From: a bacterium
GTDB taxonomy: Bacteria; AUK180
Direction: 5' to 3'
Length of the DNA stretch: 7,389 nt
NCBI GenBank assembly: GCA_030622125.1
Contig: JAUXGM010000105.1
Span: 1 to 7,389, forward strand
Of this stretch, positions 1-7,389 are shown one piece after another. Below the pieces are notes generated by a model that was not told where the DNA came from, made no database searches, and saw only the letters and a list, made by a program, of their open reading frames with translations. The position numbers and the translations under genes are program-made. Within the stretch, counting starts at the first letter, position 1. Each line of letters begins with the position of its first letter.

Positions 1-465
1 GAAAATCAATGGGATACCATTACACGTCCCGTTTATTATTATGTTGGTAACGGACTTCAAAGAATCAGTTCGAATGATCACAATAATGCTTTTGATTGGA
101 AAAATGTTGAAAATAAGGATTTAAATCCGGGGAAGGACAATTCGGAAGATCTTGCAAAAGAACCGATAGAACTTTATCAAAATTACCCCAACCCCGGAAA
201 TGCAACCGGAACTACAATAAAATATTTCCTTCCAAAAGATGCGGAAGAGATTGAATTGAAGATATACACGATTTCCGGTGATATCATAAAAACCCTGATA
301 AATAAAGATACCACAGATTATGATAACCTTATAAAAGCAGGTTTTCAAATAATTAAATGGTACGGTGAAAACGATGCTGGAAATGAGGTTCAAACCGGAA
401 ATTACTTGATGGCATTAAATGTAGACGGAACGATAAAGGTCAAAAAGATGACCTTTATGAGGTAG
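1..465 (+). CDS. 3' end of a secreted protein with FlgD-like/type IX-like C-terminal domain (partial)
   Basis: The frame is open from base 1 to a TAG at 463-465, giving 154 residues; the start lies outside the window. Residues 58-62 read ELYQN and lead into NYPNP (61-65). A beta-sandwich pattern follows: TTIKYFLP (71-78), the strand ELKIYTISGDIIKTL (85-99), an IIKWYGENDAGNEVQTGNY segment (117-135), and a final KVKKMTFMR. This is the layout of the FlgD-type Ig-like domain, and of the type IX secretion C-terminal domain, found at the end of many secreted multidomain proteins in Bacteroidota relatives and candidate phyla. The usual 'NPFNP' linker is replaced by NPGNATG. Residues 1-57 (aromatic-rich, then a charged linker) match nothing I recognise. 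The role of the missing N-terminal part cannot be told. The next gene starts 9 bases after the stop, so the two are very likely co-transcribed. The domain call is fairly sure; use of a type IX system is inference. Confidence 0.82.
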   Translation, partial: ENQWDTITRPVYYYVGNGLQRISSNDHNNAFDWKNVENKDLNPGKDNSEDLAKEPIELYQNYPNPGNATGTTIKYFLPKDAEEIELKIYTISGDIIKTLINKDTTDYDNLIKAGFQIIKWYGENDAGNEVQTGNYLMALNVDGTIKVKKMTFMR

Positions 466-474: not shown

Positions 475-2457
475 ATGAAAAAGATAGTTGGCGCATTACT
501 CATTTTGGTATTATGCGGATATTTGATCTATGGTGAAGCGGATAGCGGAACGGATAAAGCAGGTTCTGCAATGATGGGTGATTTTCTCAAATTGAACTGG
601 GATCCTGCATCCTATGCTCTTGCCGACGCCTATTCGGGTGTATCCGATAATTTTGCAGGATCGATCTTTATGAATCCTGCCGGTATTGCCCGGCTTTTAA
701 ACAGCCAATTTACATTAAGTTCGTTCTATATTCCTTCTACGAATATAAAACTATTTTTTGCCGGTGTTGAACAGAATTTCGGAATAGAGGCATCAATGGC
801 AGTAGGTGGAGCTTACCTTGATTGGGGCGAAGAGGATGAAACCGATGGTACAGGACATGTATTGGATACATTTAGAAATAGAAATACAATGGTATTCGCC
901 AGTTTCGGATCAGTGTTGGGAGGCGGACTTTATCTCGGTTTTACCGCTAAATTTATTGATCAAGTGTTGTATAATACTTATAGAAAAACTGTTCTTGCCG
1001 ATGTCGGACTTCAATTTATTCCGGAAGTGTTTAAACAGGTAGGTATTGGCGCATCCGTAACAAACATTGGAATTGCAAATAAGATGGCTTATGATGATAA
1101 GGCATTAAAAGCGCCTACAACCTTCCATCTTGGCTGGGTTATAAAATTAATTGACACACAAGGTTCAGGGCTTTCCGTTTCATTTGATAATACCTTTCCG
1201 GTAGATGGTGCCTATAAATTGAGCTTTGGCGGCGAATTGAATCTTGGAAATACAATAATCCTAAGGGGTGGATATAAAGCACTTGGATGGGATATTCCGG
1301 AACTTACTCTGGGGTTCGGACTTGGTTTTTCAAACTCCTTAAAACTTGATGTTGCTTATTCAAAAAAAGGAAATTTAGGAAGTTATGAGCTTGCTTCATT
1401 AACGGTAATATTCGGTGGCAAAAAGAAAATGAAAGAAAAAGATTGGACACCCGAGATCAAAAAAGTTGAAGAGAAGGCGAATACAAATACAAAAACAATA
1501 GAACAGGTAAGTGAAGAACTTGAAACTCTAAAAGAGCTTCTTGCACAATCTTCATCTGAATTAAGAAAAGCACTTACAGAGCAAAAACAAATGAGTGCAG
1601 AAGAACTTGCAAAGAAAGAAGCACAATCGGAAGCAGAAAAAGAGGTACTAAGGCAACAGATGGCGGCAGATCAGAAAAAAGCGGTAGAAGAGGCGGCAAA
1701 GAAAGCAGCTGAGGATACAGCAGAAAGATTAAGAAAGGAATACGAGGCAAGGTTCAACAAGATTAAAGAAGAGGTATCAAAAGATAAATATATTGAATTG
1801 CGAGAAGATAAAAGAGGGATCGTACTGAATCTTCAAGGCATTAAATTTGCCTCAGGCAAGGCAACAATTCCCCCTTATGCATTTCCAACACTTGATAGAG
1901 TTGCAAAAATACTTTCACAGTATCCTGATGCAAAAATAAGGGTCGAAGGACATACCGACAGTCAGGGTTCCGAGGCATACAATCAGAGATTGTCAAATAG
2001 CAGAGCTCATTCGGTAATGCTTTATTTTGTTGAAAAGCAGGCTATTGATCCCAACAAGATTGATTCTATCGGTTACGGTGAATCAAAGCCAATTGCCGAT
2101 AATGGAACTCCGGAAGGTAGAGCGAGAAATAGAAGGGTTGAGATCATAATTATGGGAACTCAAAAAGTTGCTCCAAAAGCAGAAAAATCAAAGGAAACAA
2201 AGACATCCAAATTTAGATCAGGGGACAATAAGGTCTGTGTAGGTTCTTATGATAATGAAAAAGGTGCAGACACAGAGGTAAGGAAGCTGCAAGAACTCGG
2301 TTATGATACAGCAAGTTATGAAAAGGTTAGACAAACATTAGGAGAAACCTCAAAGATCATTTATAGGGTCAAAATAGGTAGCTTTGATGAAGAATCTGCA
2401 AACCGTCTTGTTGATGAATTGAAAGCAAAAGGATTTGATGCCTGGATAAAAAAGTAG
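475..2457 (+). CDS. PorV/PorQ-like barrel fused to coiled coil, OmpA and SPOR domains
   Basis: This is a 660-residue outer-membrane protein. Residues 1-22 form a signal peptide, with probable cleavage near GEA|D. Cys14 is in LVLCG, which is not a proper lipobox. Residues 23-315 resemble the PorV/PorQ (UPF0164-like) barrel family: an early MNPAG (66-70), then many alternating beta strands ending in SLTVIFGG. Residues 325-435 are Lys/Glu/Ala/Gln-rich and form a long coiled coil, probably a periplasmic spacer. Residues 445-560 are an OmpA C-terminal domain with EGHTD (491-495), LSNSRA (506-511) and RNRRVEI (551-557). Asp495 and Arg510 are spaced like the diaminopimelate-binding pair of Acinetobacter OmpA. 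After a Lys/Ser/Thr linker, residues 586-660 match a SPOR domain (KVCVGSYDNEKGA..., YRVKIGSF, closing GFDAWIKK), a fold known to bind glycan strands lacking stem peptides. It likely anchors the outer membrane to peptidoglycan. Carrying both OmpA and SPOR behind a PorV-like barrel is unusual. A transport role is inference only. Confidence 0.88.
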   Translation: MKKIVGALLILVLCGYLIYGEADSGTDKAGSAMMGDFLKLNWDPASYALADAYSGVSDNFAGSIFMNPAGIARLLNSQFTLSSFYIPSTNIKLFFAGVEQNFGIEASMAVGGAYLDWGEEDETDGTGHVLDTFRNRNTMVFASFGSVLGGGLYLGFTAKFIDQVLYNTYRKTVLADVGLQFIPEVFKQVGIGASVTNIGIANKMAYDDKALKAPTTFHLGWVIKLIDTQGSGLSVSFDNTFPVDGAYKLSFGGELNLGNTIILRGGYKALGWDIPELTLGFGLGFSNSLKLDVAYSKKGNLGSYELASLTVIFGGKKKMKEKDWTPEIKKVEEKANTNTKTIEQVSEELETLKELLAQSSSELRKALTEQKQMSAEELAKKEAQSEAEKEVLRQQMAADQKKAVEEAAKKAAEDTAERLRKEYEARFNKIKEEVSKDKYIELREDKRGIVLNLQGIKFASGKATIPPYAFPTLDRVAKILSQYPDAKIRVEGHTDSQGSEAYNQRLSNSRAHSVMLYFVEKQAIDPNKIDSIGYGESKPIADNGTPEGRARNRRVEIIIMGTQKVAPKAEKSKETKTSKFRSGDNKVCVGSYDNEKGADTEVRKLQELGYDTASYEKVRQTLGETSKIIYRVKIGSFDEESANRLVDELKAKGFDAWIKK

Positions 2458-6959: not shown

Positions 6960-6968
6960 GAGATTATG

Positions 6969-7389
6969 ATGAGAAGGAATTTAGTTTTTACATTATTTTT
7001 GGTGATATCGCTCTTCGTACTTAGTGTTAATTGTTTTGCGGACATAGCTTGGGAAAGGGTTTATGAAGCACTGGTGGATGGTAGTACAATGGCTGGTGCC
7101 TATACGGGTGGAATAGGCATGAGTAAACCTGCATTTGTAGATATAGACAATGATGGTGATTATGATATGTTTATTGGTGAACAGGGTGGTAATATCTGGT
7201 ATTATCGTAATGATGGAACGGCAGGCAGTCCATCTTGGACTTTTGTTACAGCAGATTATGAATCAATAGATGTAGGAGGATATAGTGCACCTACCTTTGC
7301 GGATATAGACAATGATGGTGATTACGATATGTTTATCGGTGAATATGATGGTAATATTAATTATTATCGTAACGACGGAACAGCAGACA
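6969..7389 (+). CDS. Secreted FG-GAP/VCBS-like repeat protein (5' part)
   Basis: The frame runs open to the window edge, giving 140 residues. Residues 1-24 are a signal peptide (basic MRRN, hydrophobic core, probable cleavage CFA|D). Two repeat units follow, each with a DIDNDGDYD calcium-binding loop (58-66 and 112-120; the DxDxDGxxD pattern) and then MFIGE, GNI and YYRNDGTA. The unit is 54 residues (162 bases). This matches FG-GAP/VCBS-like beta-propeller blades of secreted or surface proteins, often involved in adhesion or polysaccharide binding; the ligand here is unknown. ATG 6969 is chosen because AGGAG (6958-6962) is 6 bases away; ATG 6966 is also possible and adds one Met. Such proteins often end in a C-terminal sorting domain like the one at the window's left edge, but that end is outside the window. 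Confidence 0.85.
   Translation, partial: MRRNLVFTLFLVISLFVLSVNCFADIAWERVYEALVDGSTMAGAYTGGIGMSKPAFVDIDNDGDYDMFIGEQGGNIWYYRNDGTAGSPSWTFVTADYESIDVGGYSAPTFADIDNDGDYDMFIGEYDGNINYYRNDGTAD
7140..7389 (+). repeat. 162-base tandem repeat inside the FG-GAP gene
   Basis: The unit starting at 7140 recurs at 7302. The first 42 bases of each unit differ at only two positions, both silent, and the ...TATTATCGTAA... segment is also shared. This nucleotide-level match points to recent duplication or gene conversion of propeller blades. The second unit is cut by the window end. Confidence 0.8.

Follow-up and report, generated by a model that had tools for sequence, protein, structure and literature searches.

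A PorV-type barrel fused to OmpA and SPOR domains follows a sorting-domain gene in Candidatus Uvuciota and may be a self-anchoring carrier of a T9SS-like surface protein

The phylum AUK180, Candidatus Uvuciota, has been reported with three genomes, including the MAG AUK180, from deep-sea and marine hydrothermal sediments (PMC11382960). The window, that is, the whole stretch of DNA analyzed here, is one whole contig of 7389 bases from a 2.08 Mb draft genome that is 96% complete. It begins inside a gene with a sorting-domain-like end, which is followed on the same strand by a gene that joins a PorV-type barrel to two wall-binding domains. The features are as follows.

1..465, + strand: 3' part of the partner gene, with a FlgD_ig / T9SS type A-like C-terminal sorting domain; its 5' end is lost at the contig edge
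475..2457, + strand: fusion gene for a PorV-type barrel, helical spacer, OmpA and SPOR (profile scores; full-length orthologs in 7/7 genomes)
475..540, + strand: probable Sec signal peptide, residues 1-22 (hydrophobic N-terminus, read by eye from the sequence)
541..1425, + strand: PorV/PorQ-family barrel, residues 23-317 (NF033709; top Foldseek matches on a low-confidence model)
1447..1785, + strand: helical spacer, coiled-coil-like and of variable length, residues 325-437 (modelled helices and alignment)
1846..2151, + strand: OmpA peptidoglycan-binding domain, residues 458-559 (PF00691; conserved Asp/Arg)
1957-1959, + strand: OmpA Asp495, invariant in 7 orthologs
2002-2004, + strand: OmpA Arg510, invariant in 7 orthologs
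2218..2454, + strand: SPOR domain, residues 582-660 (PF05036; modelled fold; Arg631 kept, conserved Gln absent)

The start codon of the fusion gene lies 9 nt past the stop codon of the partner gene, and the open reading frame (475-2457, + strand) encodes 660 amino acids. Through profile searches, we found that residues 36-310 match PorV_fam (NF033709) with 95.6 bits (curated cut-off 90, E 4e-27), residues 458-553 match OmpA (PF00691) with 82.1 bits (cut-off 27.2), and residues 589-659 match SPOR (PF05036) with 33.5 bits (cut-off 21). A preliminary description of this DNA had read the same four parts in the frame and had suggested searches with PorV/PorQ, OmpA and SPOR profiles; all three scored over their curated cut-offs, which bears out the four-part reading and shows that the SPOR match is not noise. 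The best PDB sequence match of the OmpA part is the OmpA domain of OprF (5u1h, E 5e-24), and the Asp495/Arg510 pair pointed out in that description turned out to be invariant in the seven orthologs. The coiled coil of about 110 residues described there holds in part: residues from about 325 to 434 are predicted to be helical (helices 325-337, 339-372 and 375-434 in the model), but the alignment showed that the length varies among orthologs, as would suit a spacer, and that the second family of the class has a far shorter stretch. Anchoring of the fusion protein as a lipoprotein was rejected, because no proper lipobox surrounds Cys14 and Cys is absent at this position from the aligned orthologs.

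The fold of the barrel was modelled with low confidence. In the full-length model its pLDDT is about 20-43 from a 4-sequence alignment, and a barrel-only model, likewise from 4 sequences, gave a mean pLDDT of 41. A Foldseek comparison of the low-confidence barrel model with the whole PDB returned only 8gl6_F and 6h3i_F at E <= 0.001 (E 3e-4); both entries are T9SS translocon structures, and chain F of each is what we take to be PorV. When PDB sequences were searched with a profile of the barrel, no match was obtained. PorV is a member of the FadL group of barrels, FadL chains appeared at lower ranks of the same fold search, and one ortholog showed a weak match to Toluene_X (FadL), so that the barrel could be imagined as a FadL-like channel for hydrophobic compounds that is held by the wall-binding domains and takes no part in secretion. 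We regard such a channel as quite improbable, since the barrel scores over the PorV cut-off, PorV structures come first in the fold search, and a sorting-domain gene is adjacent.

Full-length fusion proteins were found in all seven genomes of the class (GTDB AUK180), 40-70% identical to the window protein and with the same domain order, and each genome has one copy with the PorV-OmpA-SPOR architecture. The count of this domain order across genomes, which had also been suggested, is thus 7/7 in the class and at least 7 of 386 overall, the latter being a lower bound with three candidates scored per genome and the second-phylum genome G322 among the weaker matches. In two loci of the sister family (L041 and L042, at G006:C142 and G005:C188), the fusion gene is immediately followed by another gene that is strongly PorV-like. 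The genome of the window also encodes two long OmpA proteins that have no SPOR domain, one at L003 (505-2361, + strand), with a weak PorV-like barrel match, and a second at L002 (1501-3120, - strand).

The upstream partner had been overlooked in the preliminary description, and it is more telling about function than the SPOR domain. Its tail in the window matches FlgD_ig with 28.5 bits (cut-off 27) and the type A sorting domain TIGR04183 with 26.2 bits (cut-off 23); the G003 ortholog scores 19.0 bits against TIGR04183, under the cut-off of 23. A gene with a FlgD_ig / Por_Secre_tail-like C-terminal domain lies directly upstream of the fusion gene in all seven genomes of the class. Six partner orthologs are complete and have 306-319 amino acids, a signal-peptide-like start and an LTD-like N-terminal part, for which the Lamin Tail Domain match is over the cut-off in G005 and weak in G001. 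The earlier suggestion that the barrel is linked to export is supported by its PorV profile score together with this gene neighborhood.

The same arrangement was analyzed for PorV-family genes in general. We sampled 70 loci, 30 of which came from the class and 40 from the best-scoring PorV rows of other genomes; 60 of them have an upstream ORF on the same strand, and after omission of the window's own, 59 were tested. A seed profile made from six partner tails of the cassette matched 40 of the 59 upstream tails, and the iterated profile showed a sorting-domain gene immediately upstream of 43 of the 59 PorV-family genes. Among 163 control tails from other loci there were 7 matches, 4 of them cassette partners, leaving 3/159 (Fisher p about 2e-28, to be read with the facts that the iterated profile contains many of the tested tails, the seed-only profile none, and that related loci are not independent). 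These results indicate that a PorV gene behind a sorting-domain gene is the rule.

This rule also bears on the possibility that the fusion protein belongs to the export machine and, in the manner of PorQ or PorE, fixes the translocon to the wall for many substrates. One copy of the architecture per genome, in 7/7 genomes, would suit such a part, and PorE has been proposed as the anchor of the T9SS to the wall (PMC9143113). However, the many PorV paralogs behind their own sorting-domain genes point to dedicated pairs, and the fusion protein is outside the PorE and PorQ families, both models being far under cut-off: the PorQ equivalog NF033711 gave 52.8 bits against 220 required, and the PorE model, composed of TPR, propeller, CRD and OmpA parts, gave 59.2 bits against 600, with the OmpA part alone matching. 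A general machine component therefore seems unlikely to us.

For the export machinery itself, SprA homologs were found in 7/7 genomes of the class, three of them scoring above the curated cut-off; the copy in the window's genome is a frame of 1766 amino acids that scores below it. GldM/PorM gave no match in the seven genomes and was found in the control genomes G209 and G339. The PorU sortase model had no catalytic match in the family of the window, where matches were confined to the sorting-domain tail of the model, and weak matches to its protease domain were seen in the sister family. As no GldM and no catalytic PorU match were found, the export system may differ from the T9SS of Bacteroidota, and for the same reason the cargo may remain on its carrier instead of being cut and attached by a sortase.

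Based on these data, we propose, at even chances in our judgement, that the fusion protein serves one T9SS-like surface protein as a dedicated PorV-type carrier that anchors itself. After export by Sec, the partner would cross the outer membrane through SprA, and the PorV-type barrel would collect it, presumably in physical contact, by its C-terminal Ig-like sorting domain. The periplasmic tail of the carrier, composed of the helical spacer, OmpA and SPOR, would fix it to peptidoglycan, so that the anchored carrier would hold its cargo statically at the surface and would not be recycled. The evidence for this reading, which we hold neither above nor below an even chance, consists of the scores over cut-off, the gene pair in 7/7 genomes, the ratio of 43/59 against 3/159, SprA in 7/7 genomes, and PorV as first match in the fold search. 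It also draws on other PorV genes that bear other wall-binding domains and on parallels in Bacteroidota, namely PG1035-PorP-PorE and the SprF-like shuttles.

Such other fusions were read in several loci of the Uvuciota class and elsewhere. A PorV-OmpA-AMIN protein of another phylum (L024, 502-2367, + strand) is a carrier barrel with two wall-binding domains. PorV is joined to OmpA in L099, L100, L020, L110 and L111, the L020 barrel scoring 59.7 bits, under the PorV cut-off, and to TPR in L091, L105 and L108. In L101 (775-2253, + strand), L102 (630-2129, + strand) and L107 (938-2419, - strand), the PorV barrel precedes ComEA/T2SSK-like helix-hairpin-helix repeats, whose fold commonly goes with the binding of DNA or protein, and immediately upstream of each of these three genes lies one with a sorting-domain-like end. 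L104 (1490-3709, + strand) and L106 (826-2247, - strand) join PorV to CsgG/LpoB/TolB_N-like domains, and these fusions explain TolB_N matches in the class. PorV genes of 760-920 amino acids (L096, 1193-3700, + strand; L089, L090, L092, L094) have a long insert that seems to split the N-terminus from the remaining barrel; in L096 it is a Reg_prop propeller.

The preliminary description knew of no earlier account of the exact four-part architecture, and we found no description of PorV fused to OmpA and SPOR in the open-access literature searched; the architecture is nevertheless not unique, because it recurs in a second phylum. There, among 84 genomes, PorV-Ig-(OmpA)-SPOR proteins occur, and 77 genomes match the G322 protein at E <= 2e-39. 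In the 24 loci read, local profiles showed PorV and SPOR in 24/24 and OmpA also in 9, with SPOR confirmed by Pfam in four; the G322 protein scores 51.8 bits against PorV_fam, under the curated cut-off of 90. These proteins resemble the Uvuciota fusions in barrel, SPOR and domain order, but, where annotated, Ig-like domains take the position of the helical spacer. In a careful tree of the barrels, the Uvuciota fusions form one clade that adjoins L008, a stand-alone PorV encoded in the same genome, which has a long branch and is itself behind a sorting-domain gene. The free trees placed the Uvuciota and second-phylum fusions in separate clades, and a common clade of both was not rejected (AU p 0.80 in the quick tree, for which the constraint even gave a better tree, and 0.34 in the careful tree); a single origin is thus neither shown nor excluded by these barrel sequences.

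The SPOR domain was modelled in the order beta-alpha-beta-beta-alpha-beta with a pLDDT of about 85. In SPOR domains of known structure, one glycan-contacting Gln is highly conserved (RlpA Q270, FtsN Q251), together with a basic patch (PMC6895207). This Gln is replaced by Cys in the window protein and is absent in all PorV-fused SPOR domains read, which have Cys, Tyr, Phe, Leu, Met or Ser instead, whereas three further SPOR proteins from the class retain it. Every PorV-fused SPOR domain read has the Arg that corresponds to FtsN R285 (Arg631 in the window protein), with the FtsN row used as a position ruler only. Because the conserved Gln is missing, binding of denuded glycan by PorV-fused SPOR domains is doubtful, and we did not accept SPOR as proof of septal targeting. 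The earlier idea that one protein reads two states of peptidoglycan therefore stands for OmpA-type binding, by score and conserved residues, and is weakened for SPOR on denuded septal glycan. A bias of the SPOR domain towards the growing or dividing wall would be conceivable.

The main rival to the carrier is an outer membrane-peptidoglycan tether in the manner of OmpA/Pal, in which SPOR perhaps pulls the outer membrane inwards during division, the barrel serves only to anchor the protein in the membrane, and the gene upstream is merely carried along. OmpA and SPOR are both wall-binding families, and we found no convincing TolB: in the class, TolB_N gave weak matches, located in ORFs of 309-740 amino acids, two of which were read as PorV-CsgG-like fusions, and four second-phylum genomes have no TolB_N match. 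Moreover, where second-phylum loci were read with flanks, no sorting-domain gene immediately precedes the PorV-SPOR fusion, which suits a tether and means that the link to a substrate is not universal. On the other hand, the barrel belongs to the PorV family and is not a plain OmpA-type barrel, and a sorting-domain partner is upstream of it in 7/7 genomes, as of most PorV genes, so we hold a tether to be clearly less probable than the carrier.

The proposed carrier compares with known systems as follows. The PG1035-PorP-PorE complex of Porphyromonas gingivalis has an OmpA-type wall anchor (PMC9143113) and, like the cassette described here, combines a sorting-domain surface protein, an outer-membrane barrel and an OmpA-type peptidoglycan anchor. 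There, however, three separate proteins, a PorP-family barrel and a type B sorting domain are used, whereas here a PorV-type barrel and the anchor are in one chain; PorE contains TPR, propeller and CRD parts but lacks the SPOR domain that the fusion has. In Flavobacterium johnsoniae, dedicated SprF-like shuttles are encoded directly downstream of their substrates, one per substrate, and a PorE-like gene is often in their operon (PMC12618676). The fusion gene is likewise directly downstream of the gene for its putative substrate, but the SprF-like shuttles are PorP/SprF barrels for type B sorting domains and their anchor is unfused. By analogy, the fusion might work as a shuttle barrel and a PorE-type anchor in one chain. 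With PorV of Bacteroidota it shares the barrel family and probably the pick-up of Ig-like type A sorting domains; that PorV lacks a wall-binding tail, handles every type A substrate and is presumed to be recycled (PMC12618676), whereas here mostly one PorV-like gene stands behind each sorting-domain gene, and the carrier would be fixed to peptidoglycan because of its own periplasmic tail.

More speculatively, and with clearly less confidence than for the carrier itself, outside Bacteroidota each substrate might have one dedicated PorV-type carrier, whose fused module (OmpA, OmpA+SPOR, OmpA+AMIN, TPR, HhH or CsgG-like) would set the envelope site of the cargo, with OmpA-SPOR marking the growing or dividing wall. 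In Bacteroidota, the fixing of surface proteins has been pieced together from separate proteins, and a natural protein that unites the carrier barrel with the wall anchor is direct evidence that both functions belong together. The PorV fusion family thus offers testable combinations of carrier and anchor in phyla with hardly studied T9SS-like export.

Two further observations concern the rest of the window. The intergenic region at 2458-2618 contains three copies of GAGGTTAGAGG, one of them mismatched, and an element resembling CGTCATTCTGAACGAATGTGAAGAATCTAC, which may be a dispersed repeat. At 6966-7389, cut by the contig edge, lies the start of an exported FG-GAP repeat protein, possibly another surface protein.
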